Source of the DNA: Archaeoglobus profundus DSM 5631
Lineage (GTDB): Archaea > Halobacteriota > Archaeoglobi > Archaeoglobales > Archaeoglobaceae
DNA length: 64,000 nucleotides
Direction of reading: 5' to 3'
NCBI RefSeq assembly: GCF_000025285.1
Contig: NC_013741.1
Coordinates: 1,302,001 to 1,366,000 of the forward strand
The stretch's first letter is position 1; every line of letters begins with the position of its first letter. The notes under the pieces are model-generated. The model worked only from the letters and a program-made list of their open reading frames with translations. It did no database searches and was not told the origin of the DNA. The position numbers were made by a program, and so were the translations under genes. Below, piece after piece: positions 10,607 through 45,625 of the stretch.

Positions 10607-11572
10607 TCACTTAAATAGCTTCTTGTTTATCATAGCTCCGGGCAGGCTGTACCTGTAGAGTATCTTCGTTAGCACGGGATACTTCTTGATCAACTGATCA
10701 GTTACGTTCTCGTCAGCTAATATTGAACCCAACGCACTTATTGCTCTCAAGCCGAAGTCCCTTGTCGGTGGAATAGGTCCACCACATCCGGCACATCTTA
10801 TGTTTACTTTAGGACACAGAGCTCCACAATCGCCCTGAGTTACCGGACCCAAGCAGAGGTAACCCTGATTGAGTAGGCACTCCTCCTCATCTGGAATACC
10901 CTCGTGCATTCTCTTAACTTCTTTAACGAATTCTCTTGTCTTACCCTTAACGGCTGGATTTCTAGCACAGACATCGCAGACAGCCTTTCCATTCGTTATC
11001 CATGATCCCTTAGGTGGCAAGTTACCGGTTATAACCGCTTCAACAACCTTTGCGACGTGATCGTGGTGCGGTGGACATCCGCCGACGTAGTAATCGACTT
11101 CTATTACCTCATCAATCGGCTTAACACGGTCGAGGAACTCTGGCAAGGTCAATTCGAATTCACCTTCCTTACTTACGGGTTGAGGTATGACATTATTGGG
11201 GTTGTCCGTGCTCGGACTCTTTATGTACGCATTCTCGAACAACTCCTCATTCTTGTGCATGTTAGCCATTCCTGGTATTCCACCTAGAGCTGCACAGATT
11301 CCGAAAGCTACGATTATCTTACACTTCTGTCTCATCACCTTGACGAGATGCTCGTTTTCCTTGTTTCTAACCATACCTGAGATTAATCCCAAATCTATCG
11401 ACTGGTCGGGCATTGCCTCCAAATCCTTGTACTTTACATCAGCAACTGTAGGTGCCCAGAATACAATTTCCAAGTGCTCTAAAGCGTCTACGAGCTTTTC
11501 TGATAGGTCAACAACAGCCATATCACAGCCGCCACAACCACCGACTAAAAGATATGCAAGTTTCAGAGCCAT
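10607..11572 (-). CDS. mvhG: F420-non-reducing hydrogenase small subunit MvhG/VhuG
   Basis: 321 residues from the ATG at 11572, which is preceded by AGGTGAT; a longer frame reaches 11587 without better support. The proximal cluster ligands begin with GGCGGCDMAVVD near 12-23, with IAFGICAALGG and GGCPPHHD downstream. Further cysteines for two more FeS clusters are in CDVCARNP, LGPVTQGDCGALCP and CAGCGGPIPP. It relays electrons from the NiFe site of MvhA to MvhD. The stop overlaps the region upstream of mvhA. Confidence 0.92.
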   Translation of the reverse strand: MALKLAYLLVGGCGGCDMAVVDLSEKLVDALEHLEIVFWAPTVADVKYKDLEAMPDQSIDLGLISGMVRNKENEHLVKVMRQKCKIIVAFGICAALGGIPGMANMHKNEELFENAYIKSPSTDNPNNVIPQPVSKEGEFELTLPEFLDRVKPIDEVIEVDYYVGGCPPHHDHVAKVVEAVITGNLPPKGSWITNGKAVCDVCARNPAVKGKTREFVKEVKRMHEGIPDEEECLLNQGYLCLGPVTQGDCGALCPKVNIRCAGCGGPIPPTRDFGLRAISALGSILADENVTDQLIKKYPVLTKILYRYSLPGAMINKKLFK

Positions 11573-11576
11573 GTTA

Positions 11577-11993
11577 TCACCTCTCAAACTTAAACGGTCC
11601 CAACTTCCTTATCGTGGCATCGAATTCCGTCATGACTTCAGCGAACTTCAAACCTTCAGAACCGCTGATCCACTCTAGCCTTACTCTTTCTGGCTCGATT
11701 CCCAATTCAGTTAAGAGCTTGTGCAGAAGTTTGAACCTTCTTAAAGCTTTGTAGTTCCCCTCCTTGTAATGGCAATCTCCAAGGTGGCAACCTCCAACTA
11801 TCACACCGTCAGCACCGTTTGTTAGAGCCTCGACTATGAACTCTGGCTCAACTCTACCGCTGCAGGGGACTCTGACGACTTTAACAGTAGGTGGGTAGGA
11901 GTATCTCAAGCTACCAGCCATGTCAGCAGCTTGGTAAGTACACCAGTTACATGCAATACAAACGATGTTTGGTTCCCACTCCTCGCTCATCAA
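11577..11993 (-). CDS. mvhD: MvhD/VhuD [2Fe-2S] electron transfer subunit
   Basis: 138 residues, matching the MvhD family: CIACNWCTYQAADMAGSLR near 12-30, VRVPCSGRVEPEFI, and GGCHLGDCHYKEGN near 76-89. These conserved cysteines hold the cluster that connects the MvhAG hydrogenase with HdrA. A strong AGGTGATTTTTG region precedes tandem ATG codons (11993 and 11990). It lies between hdrB (3-base gap) and mvhG (4-base gap). Confidence 0.92.
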   Translation of the reverse strand: MMSEEWEPNIVCIACNWCTYQAADMAGSLRYSYPPTVKVVRVPCSGRVEPEFIVEALTNGADGVIVGGCHLGDCHYKEGNYKALRRFKLLHKLLTELGIEPERVRLEWISGSEGLKFAEVMTEFDATIRKLGPFKFER

Positions 11994-34789: not shown

Positions 34790-35479
34790 TCAGAGGCTCT
34801 GAATAAAACCATTCCGCTTTATTAGTTCTTTCCAGACTAAGACGGGTAATTTTCCAATTTTCGCAATCTTTTGTGTTGTACTTCCAATTGACATCCTTTT
34901 CATACTTGTGTTTAGAGCTATACAGCTGGCATCTATCTCTTCAGCAGTTTTTAAGATCTCTTTTGCAGGCTCTCCCAGCTTCACGTGATAGCTGGAAATC
35001 CTCGTCGTTTTCTTCTTTACATCCTTCATGAAGTTCACGATTTTTGAGATCTTGTCGGGGCTGATGCTTTGAGGAATTACAGATTCTAGGACGTGAACAA
35101 TATGCACTTCCTTAAAGGGTAGCCTCTCGATTCTAAGCCTTATGGCATCGTTGAAGACGAGCGGATTGTACCCTATGAGGCATCTCTCAAAAACGTTATC
35201 GAAATCCTTCGCAATTATGACGGGTTTTGAAACTTCTTTCGCTATGTCCAATCCAAGATCTGGATCGTCTACAGCGATCAAGTCGACATCTATGGCATCA
35301 GCGAACTTCGCAACTTCTTTTGCAGGTTCTCCTACAGTTATAAAACCATCCTTCATTTTTAACTTCTTTCTTTCCTCCAGTATCTCTCTTCCCCTAAACT
35401 TCTTTGTGTCGATTATTTTCAACCTGATTACTTCTTCCGCTTTGATTTCTACTGAGTCCGAGGCGACAAGGATTCTCAT
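34790..35479 (-). CDS. Universal-stress-protein-like, two tandem domains
   Basis: 229 residues. A degenerate N-terminal Usp-like half contains VGEPAKEVAKFADAIDVDLIAVDD, and a second half contains LGEPAKEILKTAEEIDASCIALN and a GSTTQKIAKIGKLPVLVWK loop resembling the Usp ATP-binding end. The repeated GEPAKEI segments (about 50 and about 168) show the duplication. The N-terminal nucleotide site is not well conserved. It overlaps fqoF by ATGA, so it belongs to the fqo operon. The role is unknown. Confidence 0.7.
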   Translation of the reverse strand: MRILVASDSVEIKAEEVIRLKIIDTKKFRGREILEERKKLKMKDGFITVGEPAKEVAKFADAIDVDLIAVDDPDLGLDIAKEVSKPVIIAKDFDNVFERCLIGYNPLVFNDAIRLRIERLPFKEVHIVHVLESVIPQSISPDKISKIVNFMKDVKKKTTRISSYHVKLGEPAKEILKTAEEIDASCIALNTSMKRMSIGSTTQKIAKIGKLPVLVWKELIKRNGFIQSL

Positions 35480-36720
35480 ACTCCTTCTTCCTCCTTTCTC
35501 AATGCCTTCTTAGCTTTAAATCTACAAAGCTTTTCGACGGCTTTTAAATTTGCTTCGCACTCTTCGATGTAACCCTTCGAGATCATGTAGTCGTATATAT
35601 TCTTAGCGGTTTCACTCCTTATTAAGACTGTTGAATAACCGTCTGGACTTCCAACACTTCCAATGCTAACATCCGAATCAACACCCGCAAAGTCTAGGCA
35701 GTAGTTACATCCATTAGAAACGTGCTCTTCAAGTTCTTTAATGGGGCAATCGAATACGCCATCTACCATTTCAACTATGAACTTGCCCTTCTTTATGTCA
35801 AACTTCTTAACCTTAGTGGCATCTATGTTCTTTTCTCTCAAAAACTCCATCAGACTTGAATACCTAAAGTTTTCCATGCAGAATAGGGACACAGCTAGCT
35901 TAACCTTGTTGTAAAGTGGGATTTCCTTTTGAAGGAGTCTAAGTCCAGTTATTATGCATGGCGTTCCTACTATTGCCAGCCTTCCAGCCCTCTTTATTAC
36001 TTTATTTAACTCGGGTAAAACCGGTGCTAAGCTGTACTTCGTTCCAGTAATTCTTTCGCTTTTCAGCTGATCCGGATGTTTTACATGAACGATTATTGGT
36101 TTCCACCTCTCATCCCTGCTGACCATGAGTGCCGTATCTATAATACCCATTTCGAGTGCACATGCTATAAATTCTGAAACCATAGCTCCGTCCTGTCCCT
36201 TAAACCTCTTAGATCTAGCCCCTTTAACTTCAATTACCTCTCCTACGCCGCTTTTGAAAACTGAATTGTATCTTTGGCAGACCTTTATGCAGATCGCACA
36301 ATCCCTACAAATCTTAACCCAGTCAGGGAAATCAACTACTCCATCCTTCCATATTATTCCATTTGGAGGGCAGACTGTACAAGCACCGCAACCTGTGCAG
36401 TAGCTTACGTCGACGACCTTTCTAGCAATCATATAATACTTCTTTTTCTCAATTTTTTCGGGTCTCAAGATATCTATCTCTATCTTGAACTCTTTAACTT
36501 CCTCTCTAGGAACGAGTTCAAGTGCGTTGAATGGGCAAATGTCCACACAAGATCCACAACCCGTGCATAACTCGCTGTTAAGTATTATCGTGAGAATGCT
36601 CCCATTGAACTTTGAACTTAGAGCTCCGCTTGGACAAGCATCTACGCACATCCTACATCCAACACAGTTGTCCGAATTTACGTGATGCGCCACGTATTTG
36701 CTCAGTAGCCTTTGCATCAT
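35476..36720 (-). CDS. fqoF: F420H2 dehydrogenase input subunit FqoF
   Basis: 414 residues. The N-terminus has two ferredoxin motifs, CVGCRMCVDACP and CTGCGSCVDICP (about 19-65), followed by CTGCGACTVCPP and CRDCAICIKVC. An FrhB-type FAD/F420 domain (about 170-405) has SERITGTKYSLAPVLPE, GTPCIITGLRLL and GCNYCLDFAGVDSDVSIGSVGS. FqoF oxidises F420H2 through FAD and feeds electrons into the membrane Fqo complex. The gene ends the fqo operon and overlaps fqoI by ATGA. Confidence 0.92.
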   Translation of the reverse strand: MMQRLLSKYVAHHVNSDNCVGCRMCVDACPSGALSSKFNGSILTIILNSELCTGCGSCVDICPFNALELVPREEVKEFKIEIDILRPEKIEKKKYYMIARKVVDVSYCTGCGACTVCPPNGIIWKDGVVDFPDWVKICRDCAICIKVCQRYNSVFKSGVGEVIEVKGARSKRFKGQDGAMVSEFIACALEMGIIDTALMVSRDERWKPIIVHVKHPDQLKSERITGTKYSLAPVLPELNKVIKRAGRLAIVGTPCIITGLRLLQKEIPLYNKVKLAVSLFCMENFRYSSLMEFLREKNIDATKVKKFDIKKGKFIVEMVDGVFDCPIKELEEHVSNGCNYCLDFAGVDSDVSIGSVGSPDGYSTVLIRSETAKNIYDYMISKGYIEECEANLKAVEKLCRFKAKKALRKEEEGV

Positions 36721-37151
36721 CTTTTCACCTTCAAATCTTTCTCAAACTCATATGTAACCACTTTAAGATCCCTTCCTTTGATCTTCCCTCCTGCACCTAT
36801 GGTTATATATGGATTATTAAATGCGAGGTCGTGAACGGTTGTGTTCCTTAAAGCACCTGTAGGACAAACATCTATGCAGAAGTGACAGAATATGCATTTA
36901 CCAAAGTCTATCGTTGGATAATACCTACCATTAACATTCTTCATTATTATTGCATTTGCTGGGCATATCCTCGCACATCTCGCGCAACCCAAGCACGAAA
37001 TAGCTTCAACTTGGATGTATCCTCTTATATTTTCGTAGAACCTTATCTCCTTAGGATATTGAACGGTTATCGTGCTGGGCCTTACAACTTCCTTTACAGC
37101 TTCAAATATTGCATTTATATGCCCTTTAAGCTTTGAAAAACTTCTTTTCAC
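36717..37151 (-). CDS. fqoI: Fqo subunit I (NuoI-like ferredoxin)
   Basis: 144 residues from a GTG at 37151, which overlaps the fqoH stop (GTGA) and follows GGGGGTGAT at about 12 bases. A longer frame to 37361 is an antisense-like overlap with fqoH and is rejected. Two [4Fe-4S] motifs are CLGCARCARICPAN and CIFCHFCIDVCPTG (about 52-102 of the chosen frame). It carries electrons from FqoF/FqoBCD inside the peripheral arm of the complex. Confidence 0.9.
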   Translation of the reverse strand: MKRSFSKLKGHINAIFEAVKEVVRPSTITVQYPKEIRFYENIRGYIQVEAISCLGCARCARICPANAIIMKNVNGRYYPTIDFGKCIFCHFCIDVCPTGALRNTTVHDLAFNNPYITIGAGGKIKGRDLKVVTYEFEKDLKVKR

Positions 37152-38191
37152 AACAACCAAGCTATCACCCCCGAGAAAGCTATTGAAGCAATTGCCAGCG
37201 CCATCATGAAGCCCCATCCTATCCTCAACGCTTGATCGATTCTGTATCTGGCATATATAGCTCTCGTAATTACGATAGCGCACATGACTATCAAAGCCTT
37301 TAGCATCAGCCAAATGACATCTGAAAGATCTCCCAAAACGGCTATCTCGAATCCCCTCCAACCTCCAAAGAACAGGATAACCATTAGTAGGGATAACAGA
37401 TAGAGCTTTTCATAGGCTAGAACCATGACCAAACCGAACATTATACCGCTGTATTCCACGTATGGCCCGAACGCAATTTCTTGATCAGCTTCAGGTATAT
37501 CGAAAGGCAACCTTCCGCTTGCCATTACCGTTGCAATTAAAAATGTTAGGAATGCTAATGGATTCAGAAATACACCGGGTATACTTTGCCTTTCAACAAT
37601 CGTTATAGCATCTCCAGTCTTGTAAAGCATGAGCATGGCAACAACTGAAAGGATCAGCGGAATTTCGTAGGATATATACATGAAGGATTCCCTTACCAAA
37701 CCGATATAGGCAAATCTGTTGTTTGCGCTCCACCCTATAGCTATTACGAATAGTGGTATCAACGCTATTAAAGCTACCAAACAAGGTATCCCGAATTCGC
37801 TCCTAAGAGCGTAGACGTTTCCGGCAGGAACGAGCGTTAAAGCCAATAAAATCGGAATGAACGAAAGAATCGGTAGTTGAAGGAAGTATACTTTGTTGGC
37901 ATCCCTGTGAACTATTACCTCCTGATACAAGTATCTCAGCGCATCTGCCAAAACTTGCAAAAGCCCTCCGATGTGCGGTGAGACCTCTTTAGGTCCAACC
38001 CTCCACTGAATCCTTGCTGCAATTTTTCTCTCAAACCATATTGTTATTCCCAAATAGAGTAGCAACGCAAGAAGCCCGGGCGCTATAAGGACGGCAAAGA
38101 CTTCTCTTTCGACTATTAAACCTAACAGCGGTATTTCCGCTATTCTGTTTATCAAACCCTGAACTATTGGAACATTCAACATACCTATCAC
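37148..38191 (-). CDS. fqoH: Fqo subunit H (NuoH-like)
   Basis: 347 residues with about eight transmembrane segments. The quinone-channel and coupling motifs of NuoH are visible: ERKIAARIQWRVGPKEV (about 49-65), DIPEADQEIAFG and YEISLIL-like YEIPLILSV. In the Fqo complex it joins the peripheral arm to the membrane and forms part of the quinone site (menaquinone in Archaeoglobus). Its start overlaps fqoBCD by ATGA and its stop overlaps fqoI. Confidence 0.93.
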   Translation of the reverse strand: MIGMLNVPIVQGLINRIAEIPLLGLIVEREVFAVLIAPGLLALLLYLGITIWFERKIAARIQWRVGPKEVSPHIGGLLQVLADALRYLYQEVIVHRDANKVYFLQLPILSFIPILLALTLVPAGNVYALRSEFGIPCLVALIALIPLFVIAIGWSANNRFAYIGLVRESFMYISYEIPLILSVVAMLMLYKTGDAITIVERQSIPGVFLNPLAFLTFLIATVMASGRLPFDIPEADQEIAFGPYVEYSGIMFGLVMVLAYEKLYLLSLLMVILFFGGWRGFEIAVLGDLSDVIWLMLKALIVMCAIVITRAIYARYRIDQALRIGWGFMMALAIASIAFSGVIAWLL

Positions 38192-40326
38192 CTGTCCGCT
38201 TCTGGTGGGAAGTATCCAAAGCTACCGTAAATAGCCTGCAAATCTGCAAGCCTCTCTCCTTTACAAGCTTCAACGAATCCTCTGAGGTTGTACCATGAGG
38301 GGGTAACTATTCTGAACCTGTAAGGAGTCGTAGATTCGCCGTCGCTAACGATGGACATGTATATTGTGCCTCTCGCACCCTCAACACATGAGACAAATTC
38401 TCCGAGAGGCAATACCAAATCCGTCAATTTCCACATATCCACCTTTGTTTCCCCGCTCGGCAAATCTCTAACAAGCTGATCTATTATTTTAATGCTCTGA
38501 TTTATCTCTTCAACTCTCACAAGTAACCTAGCATAGGAGTCTCCTTCTTCAGCGGTGACTACATCCCAATCGACGCAGTCGTAAGCTTCGTAACCCTTTA
38601 ATCTCCAATCGTGCCTTACGTTGGATGCCCTTAAGAAAGGTCCCACTATCCCCAGCTCTTTCGCATCCTTCTTACTCAAAATCCCGACGTTTTCAAGTCT
38701 CGCCACAACCGTGGGATTTTTAACGAACATTTTCTCGAACTTTTCAAGTCTTCTCCTCATAGCCAAAACGATTTCTCTGACTCTCCTCAGCTTTTCATCG
38801 CTGACGTCCCATCTTACTCCTCCGGGAACTATGAAGGAACCTGTAACTCTTGCGCCAGTTAAAATCGTTAGAGCTTCACATACGAACTCTCTCAAACCGA
38901 AAGCCCACATGAATCCAGTCGAATGTCCCAAAAATATGGAGAGAATTCCCGCATCGTACAGATGTGTTCCAATCCTGCATAGCTCAGCTAAGATCGTTCT
39001 AATGTATTTGGCTCTCTCAGAAACCTCAATTCCTAGAGCTTCTTCTATAGCCTTGACGTAACAGATGTCATAATTTGCAAAATCCGTTATGCATGGTCTT
39101 TCCACTAGAGGTATGTTCTTGATGTATATTCTGCTCTCAGCAATTTTCTCAACACCTCTGTGAACGTATCCCGGATCTGGAATTACATCTTTTATGATGT
39201 CTCCATCGAGCTTTACTATCAACCTCATGTGTCCGCTTCCGGGATGCTGGGGTCCAACTACAAGGATATATTCGTCTCCCTTAACGAATTCATCTGGGAG
39301 TTTTGTAACGTCCAAGTTACCATCAAAATCTTGCAAGAAAGGTCTCTCTTCCTCTATACTCTGCGATTCAAGCCTGAAATCTTTCCTTAATGGAAACTTA
39401 GGTGTGGAAACATCTAGGAGGAAGTTTCTTCCCATCCATTTGTTTCCCTCGAATACAACTCCAAAGAATTCGTGCATCTCCCTCTCCATGTAATCAGACG
39501 ACGGAAAGATATCCGACAGACTCTCCACCTTCGGGTTTTTCCTACTAATTCTTTTGGCTAGCGTTACGAGCTTGTAGTTTTCGTAGTTGTGGAGTGTAAA
39601 CTCAACGATGAATGTATCTTCATGTGGAACATCCAAGACGTTAACATCTTTAACGTTGTCAAAACCTAAGTGGGCTAAGATTTCCGCCGACCTCTTAACA
39701 TCATCTACAAATGCGTAGTAGTGGTCTTTACCCACGGTATAAACTCTAACTCCCAAGACATCTTCTAAAGTCTTAGCATAATCATCCCTGCCCCTCTCAA
39801 CGTTCGGAACTACAGCTGGATTCTCCACTCTAAACTCTTTCAAAGGAGGTAACTTTCTGACCTTACCTTTCTCAACTTCTATGCTTACCTCTTCAAACTT
39901 GTCAAAATCTTCTTTCCCTTCTATTTTTTTCTGAAGAGCAACAATACCCCTGATAAGAGCCTCCGGCGTTGGAGGACAACCAGGAACGAAAACATCCACA
40001 GGGACAACATCCCACGGTCTAACCATGTGATAGCTGTTCTTGAATAATCCACCCTTAATACCGCAAGCTCCCATAACTATAACAAACTTAGGATTTGGCA
40101 TCTGCTCCCAAGTTATCCTCAAAACTCTAGCCATCTTTCTTGTGATAGCTCCTTCAACGATTATCAGATTTGTCTGTCTGCATATACCGTAGTTCAAGCT
40201 ACCTATTCTTTCAGCGTCATAGCCACATGCGTAAGCGTGCGCCAATTCAACTCCACAACATGCGGTAACCAAATGAACTGGCCAAAGACTCCACTTAGTT
40301 CCCCACTCTTTCAGCAAGCTTAACAC
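38188..40326 (-). CDS. fqoBCD: Fqo subunits B, C and D as one fused protein
   Basis: 712 residues. Residues 1-165 are a NuoB-like N2-cluster subunit with ligands CC at 23-24, C88 and C117 (ACCGVELA, GACGIKGG, PGCPPTPEA). Residues about 175-320 match NuoC, with the PLRKDFRL end motif (about 332). Residues about 350-712 match NuoD (GPQHPGSGHMRL, CRIGTHLYDAGI, and the final FGYFPPEADR); NuoD lost the NiFe cysteines, as expected. No stop or frameshift separates the three. Bacterial NuoCD and NuoBCD fusions are known, and A. fulgidus is described with fused BC, so the triple fusion extends that trend. Confidence 0.92.
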   Translation of the reverse strand: MLSLLKEWGTKWSLWPVHLVTACCGVELAHAYACGYDAERIGSLNYGICRQTNLIIVEGAITRKMARVLRITWEQMPNPKFVIVMGACGIKGGLFKNSYHMVRPWDVVPVDVFVPGCPPTPEALIRGIVALQKKIEGKEDFDKFEEVSIEVEKGKVRKLPPLKEFRVENPAVVPNVERGRDDYAKTLEDVLGVRVYTVGKDHYYAFVDDVKRSAEILAHLGFDNVKDVNVLDVPHEDTFIVEFTLHNYENYKLVTLAKRISRKNPKVESLSDIFPSSDYMEREMHEFFGVVFEGNKWMGRNFLLDVSTPKFPLRKDFRLESQSIEEERPFLQDFDGNLDVTKLPDEFVKGDEYILVVGPQHPGSGHMRLIVKLDGDIIKDVIPDPGYVHRGVEKIAESRIYIKNIPLVERPCITDFANYDICYVKAIEEALGIEVSERAKYIRTILAELCRIGTHLYDAGILSIFLGHSTGFMWAFGLREFVCEALTILTGARVTGSFIVPGGVRWDVSDEKLRRVREIVLAMRRRLEKFEKMFVKNPTVVARLENVGILSKKDAKELGIVGPFLRASNVRHDWRLKGYEAYDCVDWDVVTAEEGDSYARLLVRVEEINQSIKIIDQLVRDLPSGETKVDMWKLTDLVLPLGEFVSCVEGARGTIYMSIVSDGESTTPYRFRIVTPSWYNLRGFVEACKGERLADLQAIYGSFGYFPPEADR

Positions 40327-40636
40327 CTCCCAACAACGGTGGAATTAACAAAGCCAGTGTCACAGCTAAGAATTTGATGTAATCGCTGAATGGTGACAGA
40401 AGTAGCATTAGGACTGCTATGGGTTCAACCGCTAAAAACAGAATCAGATAGGGGACGTATTGGAAGGGTAGAGCGTGCTTTGGTCTCTCTATTGGAACAT
40501 TTCCAGCTTCGTACCTCATCTCCTTTACTTCGCTTTTGACCTTCTCGGGAAGAAGTTTGGTAAGTATAAGCATTATCAAATCGATGACTAAGCCTACAGC
40601 CACTACTAAACCAATCAACGTCAGCGCATCCAACAA
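40295..40636 (-). CDS. fqoA: Fqo subunit A (NuoA-like)
   Basis: 113 residues with three transmembrane helices and the connecting loop YEAGNVPIERPKHALPFQYVPYLILFLAVE, which matches the NuoA loop (YECG, FxVRFYL) with the cysteine replaced by alanine. It overlaps fqoN by 16 and fqoBCD by 32 bases. It lies at the junction of membrane and peripheral arms. Confidence 0.88.
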   Translation of the reverse strand: MLDALTLIGLVVAVGLVIDLIMLILTKLLPEKVKSEVKEMRYEAGNVPIERPKHALPFQYVPYLILFLAVEPIAVLMLLLSPFSDYIKFLAVTLALLIPPLLGGVKLAERVGN

Positions 40637-41739
40637 GCTATCACCCCCTCATATATTGGTGTTGGGTAAATTATCAGAGATATTAAGACGCATGCAGTCA
40701 CAACTGCTGAAACGATTAGACTTCTACCTCTTTCATACATGCCAGCGAGTCTGACGTAGTAGGGGACAGATATAACGGAGTTTATAACTAAGATTACCGC
40801 TAATATAAGCAGATTAGACTTTATCAGCGATGTCAGTATGAAAAATTTACCCCAAAAGCCTAGGAGTGGTGGCACGCCTATCATAGAGAATGCGAGGAGG
40901 TATGTCTGAACTTTATTTGCACCATCTTTTAAAGCTGTGAAAAATCCGATCTTTCCAGCTGAGTTTGCCAAAAGCTGTATGAAAGCTCCAGCAAATCCTA
41001 GTGGATTTAAAGTCGTTAAAGCTGATGTCACGTAACCCATGTTCGCAATCGTAGAATACGCCAAGATTCTCTGAGGTTTATTGGAAGTTAAGGCTCCGAC
41101 GTTTCCTACGAGCATGGATAAAACTGACAGTGCGAATATGAAGGCAAATGTGATCTCATCCAAGCTCAAAACCCTGAAGGCTATGAGGAATGGAATGAAC
41201 TTTGCCAAGCTTGCAATTACAGCAACCGTAACCGGATCACCTTCCTCAAAAACGTCTGGAACCCAGATGTGCAACGGAGCAATTCCCACTTCCAATGCTA
41301 GGCCGATCAAGAATAAGATCTTGCCGATGACCGTGTTCAAGTTGATAAGGCCGAAGATGAACAAGACTGTCGCTAAAACCATGAACGTGATGTATTTTAC
41401 CGCTGTATCTGGTTTTACATCGTCCTCCGAAAGCAGTATTAGGGCGTACGTTGGAACGCTTCCAGCTATGAAGCAAACTATCAGGACTGCGAGATCGTTC
41501 GATTGAAATGCGTGAAGCGTTGCTATGAGCATCAGAATTGGGAGAGTTAAGTGACTCTTCCACTTCAGCAGAGTTAGAGATGCGAGGTTTAAGATTGCGA
41601 TGACAGTTATCAGGGCTAGGAAAGGATTGGTACTGAATGTGAGCATAGCGGAAATTATGCAAGCTACTATTCCCGCCGATCTACTTTTCAGAGATAATAC
41701 CGCTCCTATCGATAGAACTATTAATGCTACAATTTCCAT
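40621..41739 (-). CDS. fqoN: Fqo subunit N (NuoN-like antiporter subunit)
   Basis: 372 residues with about eleven hydrophobic segments. The proton-pumping glutamate and lysines of the antiporter fold are suggested by LALEVGIAPLHIWVPDVFEEGDPV (about 145-168), SLAKFIPFL and YSTIANMGY. It is about 110 residues shorter than bacterial NuoN, mainly through fewer N-terminal helices. It overlaps fqoL by 13 bases. Confidence 0.9.
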   Translation of the reverse strand: MEIVALIVLSIGAVLSLKSRSAGIVACIISAMLTFSTNPFLALITVIAILNLASLTLLKWKSHLTLPILMLIATLHAFQSNDLAVLIVCFIAGSVPTYALILLSEDDVKPDTAVKYITFMVLATVLFIFGLINLNTVIGKILFLIGLALEVGIAPLHIWVPDVFEEGDPVTVAVIASLAKFIPFLIAFRVLSLDEITFAFIFALSVLSMLVGNVGALTSNKPQRILAYSTIANMGYVTSALTTLNPLGFAGAFIQLLANSAGKIGFFTALKDGANKVQTYLLAFSMIGVPPLLGFWGKFFILTSLIKSNLLILAVILVINSVISVPYYVRLAGMYERGRSLIVSAVVTACVLISLIIYPTPIYEGVIACWMR

Positions 41740-43547
41740 TCAAACCACCCCGCTATCAAAAGTATAGTAAACAGCAGTCCGATTACAAACTCAACGTATT
41801 TCGTAAGCCTCTTTCTCTGAACGCTTCTGATAGCATTCGATACGTTTTCGAACATCTCCGGTATAACTGTATGGGCAAACAAATCTACGGCTTTGTCGAA
41901 GTAATAGCAAAGGAAGATGAAAGCCCTTCCAATACTGGGAACTATCAAGTCGTTTAAAGCCATCAGATACATCCTATCACTCAAAAACTGACCCACCCTC
42001 GATTCGTAAGTGGGCTTGAGTATAGCTAAGACGTAAGCAATAGCCAAAATAATTCCCACGATTACCGAACTTTCGCTAACCTCTCTGAAAACGTAGACTA
42101 TTAAAGGTAAGAGCGTTAGGCACATTACGATGTAAGACGTTTGCATCAAAATTTCCCTGTGTGTGTATATCTCAACTTCTCTACCCTTTAAGAAGTTTAA
42201 ACTCAAGAATTTTGCGAGAAATGCGGAATAAATTACGGATGTTAGCAGAAACAAAGCTAAGGGGTAATATCCGAACTCTTCGAGATGATGTAATAGTTCT
42301 TCCATTCCCGATTTAACCCAGTAAGCCGTGAAAGGAGGGATTCCAGAAAGGCAGAGTGTGGCAATTAAGGTTGCGATGAAGGCTGATGGCATCTTCCTAA
42401 AGTTGACTTTGCAGTGGAATCTGTTGTGAGTGGCGTGAATTAGATGTCCAGCTACTAAGAACAGTGTAGCTTTGGCTAACGCATGAACGACGAGGTAGAG
42501 AAATGCGAGGATTATCGCTATTCTACCGAACCAGAAACTCAGAGATGTAACTGCAAACATTATTCCAAGGCTTGAGAGGGTTGAAGAGGCGAGCAGGACC
42601 TTTCTTTCTCTACAGGCTAAGGCTACGAGTGCACCGTAAAGGGATGAGGATAACCCTAAGAACAGGATTAAGGTGTAAGCGAATTCGAGTTCATGGATGT
42701 TCCAAGGCTCGATATACCAGCTGAGGCGCATGAAGAGGTATGCTCCCGCCGCTACCATCGTGGCTGAGTGAAGCAAGGCTGAAACGGTAGTCGGACCGGT
42801 CATTGCAGTCATGAGCCATTCGCTAAATGGTAGCTGTGCGGACTTTGTAAAGGGCCCCATCATTAAAGCTAGCAACACTATGCTCGAAGCGAATCCCAAA
42901 TCTTTGAAGACAGTATGCCAATCCATTGACGATACGTTGAGATTTTGCGTCAGTGCGAATATTACCGCAATGGCGAAGAACATCGGCATGTCTCCTATCC
43001 TTATAGTCGATATGGCTCTCCAAGCTGAGAAGCTCGGTGACCAGAACATTTTAAGCTTCCAAACCCTTCTTCCTATCTCTCCAACGTAGCTGAGTTCGTC
43101 ATCATCCCTGAACCAATGCCCTATTAAAGCCCAGGATGCCAAGCCCAAGCCTTCCCATCCTATGAGCAAAGAGAGGAGGTTGTCGCTGTAAACAACTAAG
43201 AGCATTGAAGACGTGAACGTGTTAAAGAAAAACCAGTACCATCCCAAGCGATAGTCATGCTTCATGTATTCCAAGCTGTAAACTCCTATTAGGAACGCTA
43301 TAAAAGCCGTTAAAAGTCCCATCGTCTTGCTCAAATAGTCCAATATAAACGTGAAGCTTATTCCAAGCTGGGGTATCCACGGATAGCTGATTGTTGAATC
43401 TGGCAAGTTGTAGGTGTATATTGTTAAAATGAACGATAGGAACAAGCCAAAAACGGATGTAACAGCGAGATTTTTCCTCCAGAGATACCACGCAATAGCT
43501 GTAGGAATGCTGAATATCATCGGCAAGATTATCAACGCGATTATCAT
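41727..43547 (-). CDS. fqoL: Fqo subunit L (NuoL-like antiporter subunit)
   Basis: 606 residues with 14 or more transmembrane helices. SLLIGWEGLGLASWALIGHWFRD (about 135-157), KSAQLPFSEWLMTAMTGPTTVSALLHSATMV and HALAKATLFLVAGHLIHATH carry the conserved acidic and lysine residues. The length is close to E. coli NuoL, so the C-terminal lateral helix is probably present. It ends 13 bases into fqoN. Confidence 0.93.
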   Translation of the reverse strand: MIIALIILPMIFSIPTAIAWYLWRKNLAVTSVFGLFLSFILTIYTYNLPDSTISYPWIPQLGISFTFILDYLSKTMGLLTAFIAFLIGVYSLEYMKHDYRLGWYWFFFNTFTSSMLLVVYSDNLLSLLIGWEGLGLASWALIGHWFRDDDELSYVGEIGRRVWKLKMFWSPSFSAWRAISTIRIGDMPMFFAIAVIFALTQNLNVSSMDWHTVFKDLGFASSIVLLALMMGPFTKSAQLPFSEWLMTAMTGPTTVSALLHSATMVAAGAYLFMRLSWYIEPWNIHELEFAYTLILFLGLSSSLYGALVALACRERKVLLASSTLSSLGIMFAVTSLSFWFGRIAIILAFLYLVVHALAKATLFLVAGHLIHATHNRFHCKVNFRKMPSAFIATLIATLCLSGIPPFTAYWVKSGMEELLHHLEEFGYYPLALFLLTSVIYSAFLAKFLSLNFLKGREVEIYTHREILMQTSYIVMCLTLLPLIVYVFREVSESSVIVGIILAIAYVLAILKPTYESRVGQFLSDRMYLMALNDLIVPSIGRAFIFLCYYFDKAVDLFAHTVIPEMFENVSNAIRSVQRKRLTKYVEFVIGLLFTILLIAGWFEWKL

Positions 43548-44935
43548 GCAAACACCTCCATCAAAGCATCGACGATGTATTTTGCAGTGAAGAGAGTTAT
43601 TATAGATATTAAACCTATAACGTACAGGGGTATTTTAACGGATAGAGCAATCCTCTTGCTCGGATAGTCTTTAGGCTTACCGTAGTATATCCTCTTCATG
43701 GTGTAGAAGCTGTAAAGCCCGGAAATTATGAAAGCAACTATAACCATCATAGCCACCCTACCGATTCCGTAGAACTCCACAACACCTCTAAGAATGAAGA
43801 ACTCTCCGAGCAAGCCTATCGTTACAATCCCGCTCAAGTTCATGAAGCCTAAGAGGGATGCGTTCGCTATTTCTGGAACTTGCTCGTGCAATCCACCCAT
43901 TTTCTCGATATCTCTAAGATGGTAGGCCATTATCAAAGCTCCGGCACTCATGAAGAGTATGGATTTTCCGAATGCGTGTGATACGTATTGAATAACTAGA
44001 CCGAACATACCGTATGTTCCCAAACAGAGGGCCATCAGCATGTAACCCATTTGGGAAACGGTTGAATAGGCTAAAAGCCTCTTGAAGTCTCTCTGCTTGA
44101 AAACGATAAGGCCTGCTACGAAACTTGTTAGAAATCCGTAAAGAAATATTTGATCTCTGAATTTTATAACAAAGCTTGGATCTATTTCATAAATTCTTAA
44201 AAGAATATACCCAGCCAGACCGACAGTTAACGGGCTTAGTAGGGCACTTACTGGCGTAGGAGCTTCAGCATGGGCATAGGGGAGCCAGATGTGAAATCCT
44301 AATCCCGGCAATTTGATTACCATTCCGAGAAATATCAGAATCCATGCAACCATAGGTATCACTTTAATGTAGGGCATCAGCAACGTTTGATTTTTCAATC
44401 CGACGATTATGAACCCTATCAATGTTAAAACACCAGCTACATGTGTCCAAACGAAGTAGAGCAGAGCAACCCACCTTCTATTTCCATATCCATAGTAGTA
44501 TATCAGTAGAAACGAAGAAACTAGCGATATTTCGAGGAAAACGTAAAGGAGGAGTAGATTTGCTGAGTAGACCAGTAACAGCATTGAATACGCGTATAGG
44601 TTGTACAGGAACCAATACTTTCTAAATTCGCCTTCACCCAATCCCATCTCTTCGAATCTGTGTTTCATGTAAGGGTAAGAATATAGAGCGACCATACTCG
44701 AAATCAGAGCTATCGTAAATCCAAAAATGTTCGAAATACCGTCGGAGAATAAATAAAAGTCACCTACTGGTGAGGGAAAGCTGAGAAGGTGGATATAGCC
44801 TCTGGAAGTGAGCTTCAAGGCGATGAGTATACATGACAGCACATAAGCTAAAGACGTTATCAGATGTCCTCTCACGATTAGCGGGGCAATTATCAAAGCT
44901 ACCAGCGGTATCGCGACTTCAATCAATCTTATCAC
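43544..44935 (-). CDS. fqoM: Fqo subunit M (NuoM-like antiporter subunit)
   Basis: 463 residues with about 14 transmembrane helices. LYVFLEISLVSSFLLIYYYGYG carries the first conserved glutamate (about 130-150), and KLPGLGFHIWLPYAHAEAPTPVSALLSPLTV and HAFGKSILFMSAG follow, the family proton-channel motifs. It pumps protons or Na+ when F420H2 is oxidised. It overlaps fqoL by ATGA and fqoK by 17 bases. Confidence 0.93.
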   Translation of the reverse strand: MIRLIEVAIPLVALIIAPLIVRGHLITSLAYVLSCILIALKLTSRGYIHLLSFPSPVGDFYLFSDGISNIFGFTIALISSMVALYSYPYMKHRFEEMGLGEGEFRKYWFLYNLYAYSMLLLVYSANLLLLYVFLEISLVSSFLLIYYYGYGNRRWVALLYFVWTHVAGVLTLIGFIIVGLKNQTLLMPYIKVIPMVAWILIFLGMVIKLPGLGFHIWLPYAHAEAPTPVSALLSPLTVGLAGYILLRIYEIDPSFVIKFRDQIFLYGFLTSFVAGLIVFKQRDFKRLLAYSTVSQMGYMLMALCLGTYGMFGLVIQYVSHAFGKSILFMSAGALIMAYHLRDIEKMGGLHEQVPEIANASLLGFMNLSGIVTIGLLGEFFILRGVVEFYGIGRVAMMVIVAFIISGLYSFYTMKRIYYGKPKDYPSKRIALSVKIPLYVIGLISIITLFTAKYIVDALMEVFA

Positions 44936-45185
44936 CCTCCAAACTCGTCGTTCTAAACATTTTACTGAATATCGTTATTACGGCAACGAGAATCATGAGT
45001 TCGGAAGAACTCGTGAAGATAACAGCCACCAACGTTTCGTACCCCTGTGGAGAGTTCATGATGCCTAGGATCGATAAGAACAAAGAGGCGAATAGGAATT
45101 CCAAGGATATCAGTAACCTTACAAGATCTCTACTCGAAACAAGCATTATTGAACCTATTATCAGCATCACCAGTGCCAGTATCAA
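44919..45185 (-). CDS. fqoK: Fqo subunit K (NuoK-like)
   Basis: 88 residues and three transmembrane helices, slightly shorter than bacterial NuoK. The first and second helices contain the conserved glutamates: LLISLEFLFASLFLSILG and SSSELMILVAVI. It overlaps fqoJ by four bases. Confidence 0.85.
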   Translation of the reverse strand: MILALVMLIIGSIMLVSSRDLVRLLISLEFLFASLFLSILGIMNSPQGYETLVAVIFTSSSELMILVAVITIFSKMFRTTSLEGDKID

Positions 45186-45625
45186 GATTTACACCTCCAA
45201 ACCTCGATTAATGGGATCATCACGAGTAAAGATAGGCTGAATAGAAAGAAGATGGGTTCAAAGCCTATTAAAGATGTTACGTAATCTCTCGGATTGTCAA
45301 TAACTGTAAGAGGTGCAACCAGAGCAAGAAAGACTGCAACTGCAAGCGCGAAGAATATCCACCTGAGCTTGTATTTGATAGATGCCTTCTCTCGATACGA
45401 GTAGGCCAAAACCAAAGTTACTGCTCCCAGGGCTCCGATGAATATTAAGGCGATAAGTGCGAATGCAGAATGAATCCCATAGTAAGCGTACACTCCAGCT
45501 ATACATATCATGGTAAGACACATGTAAAGGGCTGAGTAGAAGTTGTCCCTGCTCAGGAGAGATGCTATTCCGAAAGTTACAATTAATACGTACAAGATTA
45601 CCAAGCCAGTCGGCACGTTGCTCAT
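45182..45625 (-). CDS. fqoJ: Fqo subunit J (NuoJ-like)
   Basis: 147 residues with about five transmembrane helices. Its conserved tyrosine/glycine segment IFIGALGAVTLVLAYSY is the NuoJ pi-bulge helix region (YxGAV). It is the first gene of the fqo operon. A TATA-like AAAACTTAAAAACC lies about 15-30 bases before the ATG, implying a short leader. Confidence 0.88.
   Translation of the reverse strand: MSNVPTGLVILYVLIVTFGIASLLSRDNFYSALYMCLTMICIAGVYAYYGIHSAFALIALIFIGALGAVTLVLAYSYREKASIKYKLRWIFFALAVAVFLALVAPLTVIDNPRDYVTSLIGFEPIFFLFSLSLLVMIPLIEVWRCKS

Follow-up and report, generated by a model that had tools for sequence, protein, structure and literature searches.

A single-frame FqoBCD quinone module in Archaeoglobus profundus, with D joined in a small lineage of Archaeoglobi

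Does the fqo operon of Archaeoglobus profundus encode three core subunits of the quinone module as one polypeptide and, if so, is this a step particular to its lineage? The window analysed here is a stretch of 64,000 nucleotides from A. profundus DSM 5631 (NC_013741.1, positions 1,302,001 to 1,366,000), and in a preliminary description of it B, C and D were placed in one frame of 712 residues at 38188-40326. The single frame was borne out: 712 codons can be read from a GTG on the minus strand with no internal stop, and the Pfam domains Oxidored_q6 (B, aa 24-131), Complex1_30kDa (C, aa 208-322) and Complex1_49kDa (D, aa 466-712) follow one another in that order. All three score well over their cut-offs, with PF00346 (Complex1_49kDa) reaching 245 bits on the D part. 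The gene is laid out as follows, in window coordinates.

38188..40326, minus strand: fqoBCD as one open frame, of 712 codons if read from GTG or 709 from the more probable TTG start
40324..40330, minus strand: perfect Shine-Dalgarno sequence GGAGGTG, with a spacing of 6 to the TTG at 40315-40317
39907..40326, minus strand: FqoB (NuoB-like) part, aa 1-140
40255-40260 (C23, C24), 40063-40065 (C88) and 39976-39978 (C117), minus strand: N2 ligands, within the FqoB part
39742..39906, minus strand: B-C linker, aa 141-195; aa 143-170 of low confidence in the model
39361..39741, minus strand: FqoC (NuoC-like) part, aa 196-322
39277..39360, minus strand: C-D linker, aa 323-350; of low confidence in the model
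38191..39276, minus strand: FqoD (NuoD-like) part, aa 351-712; ends in PPEADR; loop aa 616-643 shortened

The length of 712 residues holds as a codon count from the GTG; however, the listed GTG at 40326 falls within the Shine-Dalgarno sequence. The TTG at 40317 is preferred because the perfect GGAGGTG lies six bases before it, and, as judged from the sequence, it is probably the start, giving a chain of 709 residues. The FqoB N-terminus (window 40300-40330) is shorter than in relatives, whose start lies ~17-20 residues before WGTKW; G016, a second genome assigned to the same genus, keeps most of the stretch before WGTKW that A. profundus is without.

All N2-cluster ligands and the NuoD end motif had also been described as intact, and both statements were confirmed. 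The CC...C...C set of C23, C24, C88 and C117 is complete and invariant in alignment A1, while the protein ends in GSFGYFPPEADR, with the conserved NuoD-type ADR/VDR end present as EADR. The two junctions, put at about 39,800 and 39,300, fall inside the B-C and C-D linkers. An AlphaFold model of the product (mean pLDDT 74.7, alignment of 47 rows) is confident for the C and D domains, gives low confidence to the linkers (143-170 and 317-344) and is weak for the FqoB part. In a Foldseek comparison, the CD part of the model matched E. coli HycE and NuoCD, with TM 0.74-0.83 by target length. These best structural matches share the C-D fusion with A. profundus; in them, however, B is separate and the enzyme is NADH- or formate-linked, whereas the A. 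profundus B is fused. The D loop ahead of the LPLGE strand (aa 616-643, window 38398-38481) comprises 28 residues in A. profundus and G016, and 32-65 residues in other Fqo sequences where measurable.

The fused gene lies in a complete ten-gene operon, in which the B, C, D, H and I core and the membrane-arm subunits form one cluster as read from Pfam matches and ORF order.

40621..45625, minus strand: fqoN, two more antiporter-like subunits (L/M), K and J, forming the membrane arm (from Pfam and ORF order)
40295..40636, minus strand: fqoA (NuoA-like), overlapping the fqoBCD start
37148..38191, minus strand: fqoH (NuoH-like), overlapping the fqoBCD end
36717..37361, minus strand: fqoI (ferredoxin-like, with two [4Fe-4S]); its true start is probably downstream of the one listed for the ORF
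35476..36720, minus strand: fqoF (FrhB-type F420H2-oxidising input subunit), with FrhB_FdhB N and C domains

Subunits J, which has no Pfam match, and K, which scores slightly under the cut-off, were assigned partly from position and size. The input subunit is the FrhB-type FqoF and not NuoEFG. The published A. profundus cluster comprises ten genes, Arcpr_1575-1584 (PMC3035285), as would be expected with BCD counted as a single gene; among Archaeoglobi, F420H2-dependent menaquinone reduction is cited for A. fulgidus (PMC3035285). A PF00346 search of the whole genome (chromosome 1,560,622 nucleotides; total 1,563,423) returned a single match, fqoBCD; no second NuoD-like gene was thus found in the genome, nor was any disrupted extra copy of D present in it. 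Another NuoB-family (PF01058) protein, of 326 aa, is encoded at window 10607-11587 on the minus strand, where it adjoins a 504-aa ORF; it is probably a hydrogenase small subunit.

We consider it highly probable (roughly 90%) that the Fqo quinone module is one polypeptide, in which NuoB-, NuoC- and NuoD-type domains are joined by two flexible linkers, and that D was joined in the A. profundus lineage. As in complex I, electrons would pass from FqoF to FqoI, on to cluster N2 in the B domain, and from there to menaquinone at the interface of the B and D domains; the operon also encodes the proton-pumping membrane arm. The product, predicted from the gene sequence to be a single polypeptide in the cell, would perform an unchanged reaction, and the main consequence of the fusion would probably be co-translation and obligatory 1:1:1 co-assembly. 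A fixed 1:1:1 stoichiometry with co-assembly may reasonably be inferred.

The C-D junction of the Fqo-type gene could be read in 48 of the 59 class members searched within Archaeoglobi. D is fused in two of them, A. profundus and G016, which are also the only ones with a C-D linker, and it is separate in the remaining 46. The B-C fusion is common to the surveyed Archaeoglobi Fqo, occurring in every genome that has the B and C parts on one contig, and on the preferred reading is ancestral to Archaeoglobi Fqo. Among the genomes surveyed, the D fusion is thus specific to one small lineage, and at this level the suggestion of a lineage-specific step stands. The statement that A. fulgidus has only B and C fused also proved correct: locus L023, which we take to be A. 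fulgidus, resembles A. profundus in enzyme, operon, domain order and fused B-C, but its D is a separate gene, whose own start overlaps the stop of BC. D is likewise separate in G015, a genome assigned to the same genus as A. profundus; on the Fqo tree it groups with another genus, away from the A. profundus/G016 pair, and so says little on the immediate past of that pair.

In unfused Archaeoglobi, D starts at the BC stop or a few bases from it and carries a leader of ~40 residues; a GAGGTGA-like site within the BC tail usually precedes the start. BC and D even share a frame in four genomes (G005, G013, G042 and G019), with one stop between them; with the two genes adjacent, and in these genomes one stop apart, few steps would be needed for fusion. 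The distance from PLRKDF to GPQHP is ~40 residues in fused genes vs ~52 in unfused ones (BC tail plus leader), and the alignment suggests that the former have lost the stop and the ribosome site together with some of the leader. D would have been joined in the A. profundus lineage through loss of the BC stop and of roughly twelve codons from the BC tail and the D leader. What looked like a frame of 803 aa in G040 proved not to be fused: it is made up of two frames, 367 and 431 aa long, each bounded by stops and a short distance apart. Three genomes (loci L056 in G014, L057 in G009 and L058 in G031) have an additional NuoB/C/D set, unfused and of the canonical complex I type, which is absent from the A. 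profundus genome. In genus g11 (L031 and L033-L035), a search of the ~1.5 kb that follow FqoD, where FqoH lies in other Archaeoglobi, found no FqoH-like gene; gene order may differ there.

Could the open frame be an artefact, with a stop deleted by sequencing or assembly error and the true genes being BC and D as in A. fulgidus? In the four relatives with BC and D in one frame, a single wrong base could indeed mimic a fusion. In A. profundus, however, nothing is left of the ancestral stop region or of the GAGGTGA ribosome site, and a part of the D leader is missing as well; the assembly has high coverage (136x 454 and 30x Illumina; PMC3035285). Moreover, G016 (75% identical) independently has the same single BCD frame and open linker. 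The two C-D linkers are 50% identical in amino acids, differ at 27%, 23% and 73% of codon positions 1, 2 and 3, and align with gaps that are two and four whole codons long; this third-position excess and these whole-codon indels are the pattern of translated sequence. An error as the source of the BCD frame is very unlikely, and hardly credible on this evidence. It is also conceivable that the gene is fused, yet a separate D is made through internal initiation or by cleavage of the chain in the linker, which is of low confidence in the model and probably exposed. In-frame TTG codons precede GPQHP by 20 and 27 codons and could allow weak internal initiation. Those codons, however, are without a strong Shine-Dalgarno sequence, the ancestral one having been lost, and the linker motif EER-FLQDFD is kept in both A. 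profundus and G016; we regard a separate D as quite improbable, and prefer the reading of a single polypeptide.

Beyond Archaeoglobi, no implication of uniqueness is supported: the three-way fusion is of a kind already known in archaea and bacteria. Across 394 surveyed genomes of the phylum, full-length BCD frames of ~770-860 codons were found in families f7 (at least 30 genomes), f17 and f26, whose lineages are Methanophagales/ANME-1, a Candidatus Syntrophoarchaeum sp. and Candidatus Alkanophagales; all 18 of the genomes translated from these families were fused. A collection of named genomes, partly overlapping those of the phylum survey, yielded ~30 fused BCD loci in Methanophagales, Alkanophagales and a Syntrophoarchaeum-like lineage. 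Their FqoBCD proteins are, like that of A. profundus, Fqo-type and encoded in one frame, with ~49-56% identity to it, but they are longer (770-860 aa), keep the C tail and D leader in the C-D linker, and form a separate clade. Vulcanisaeta and Caldivirga have the BC,D arrangement. A 2024 survey reported BC fusion in 47 archaeal assemblies, ten of them further fused to D (PMC11237513); the A. profundus protein has FqoBC joined to D, as in archaeal BCD fusion cluster 482 of that survey. A 2025 survey described fused BCD in Thermodesulfobacteriota and found it associated with an anaerobic lifestyle (PMC12361115). Bacterial NuoBCD (NCBIfam NF009808; Thermodesulfobacteriota) has the same three-way order but belongs to bacterial complex I, and the A. 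profundus protein, at 409 bits against a cut-off of 1156, lies below the curated threshold of that family. The contigs of five loci (L108, L117, L118, L119 and L123), whose titles name Nitrosotalea, WOR-3, Desulfobacterales, Desulfurobacteriaceae and Flavobacteriales, bear fqo genes typical of Archaeoglobi or Methanophagales and are probably mis-binned.

The existence of two fused archaeal groups leads to the question as to whether BCD arose once or twice. In B+C+D trees, A. profundus and G016 are placed beside the unfused Archaeoglobaceae genus g11 (SH-aLRT 95 in quick trees, bootstrap 83 in the careful tree), apart from the Methanophagales group, and the best trees need two separate changes to BCD, such counts on trees alone not separating gain from loss of fusion. 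A shared origin with the Methanophagales/Alkanophagales BCD, via transfer or an ancestral fusion later split in other Archaeoglobi, would require a one-clade tree, which is not firmly rejected: a tree constrained to a single BCD clade is worse by 17.8 log units (AU p 0.10) for B+C+D and by 28.6 (p 0.049) with FqoH added. The addition of FqoH, however, shifts support further towards the Archaeoglobi placement, and B-domain identity is 86-90% to g11 vs 61-77% to the Methanophagales group. The linkers also differ, in that those of the Methanophagales group keep the C tail and D leader and that of A. profundus does not. Together with the tree placement, these points make a shared origin unlikely, and two separate BCD origins, one in the A. 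profundus lineage and one in the Methanophagales group, are favoured with moderate support. One archaeal class displays a stepwise fusion, from B,C,D through BC,D to BCD, with in-frame relatives one stop away, while a second archaeal group probably came to BCD separately. More tentatively, and with rather less than even odds, the separate D fusion and the trimming of the protein (the shorter FqoB N-terminus and the shortest Fqo D loop) may have produced a compacted Q-module that at high temperature assembles as a single folding unit. Structural studies of Fqo could benefit from a single-chain Q-module purified from a hyperthermophile; the understanding of how relatives of complex I function is unchanged by the fusion.

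The D part had been labelled the quinone-binding half, a label that needs care, since Tyr87 and Asp139 of the complex I site are Ile and Phe in A. profundus. When D sequences, 62 of them Fqo-type, were aligned to T. thermophilus Nqo4, the position of Tyr87 was Ile in 62/62 Fqo-type sequences and that of Asp139 was Phe in 61/62, and the loop at His38 was one residue shorter in all 62. A. profundus thus differs from the canonical complex I quinone site at three places, with a gap at His38 (GSGH for STHG) in addition to the two replacements. Two Fpo-like D sequences of family f5 keep Tyr at Tyr87, and the additional complex I-like copy that some Archaeoglobi have (L056-L058) retains His38, Tyr87 and Asp139. 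As far as this alignment reaches, the altered residues are a feature of Fqo generally and not of the fusion; a limited literature search found no paper on these replacements. The Fqo-type D sequences (loci L002-L084) serve a menaquinone enzyme and lack the Tyr87 and Asp139 of complex I.
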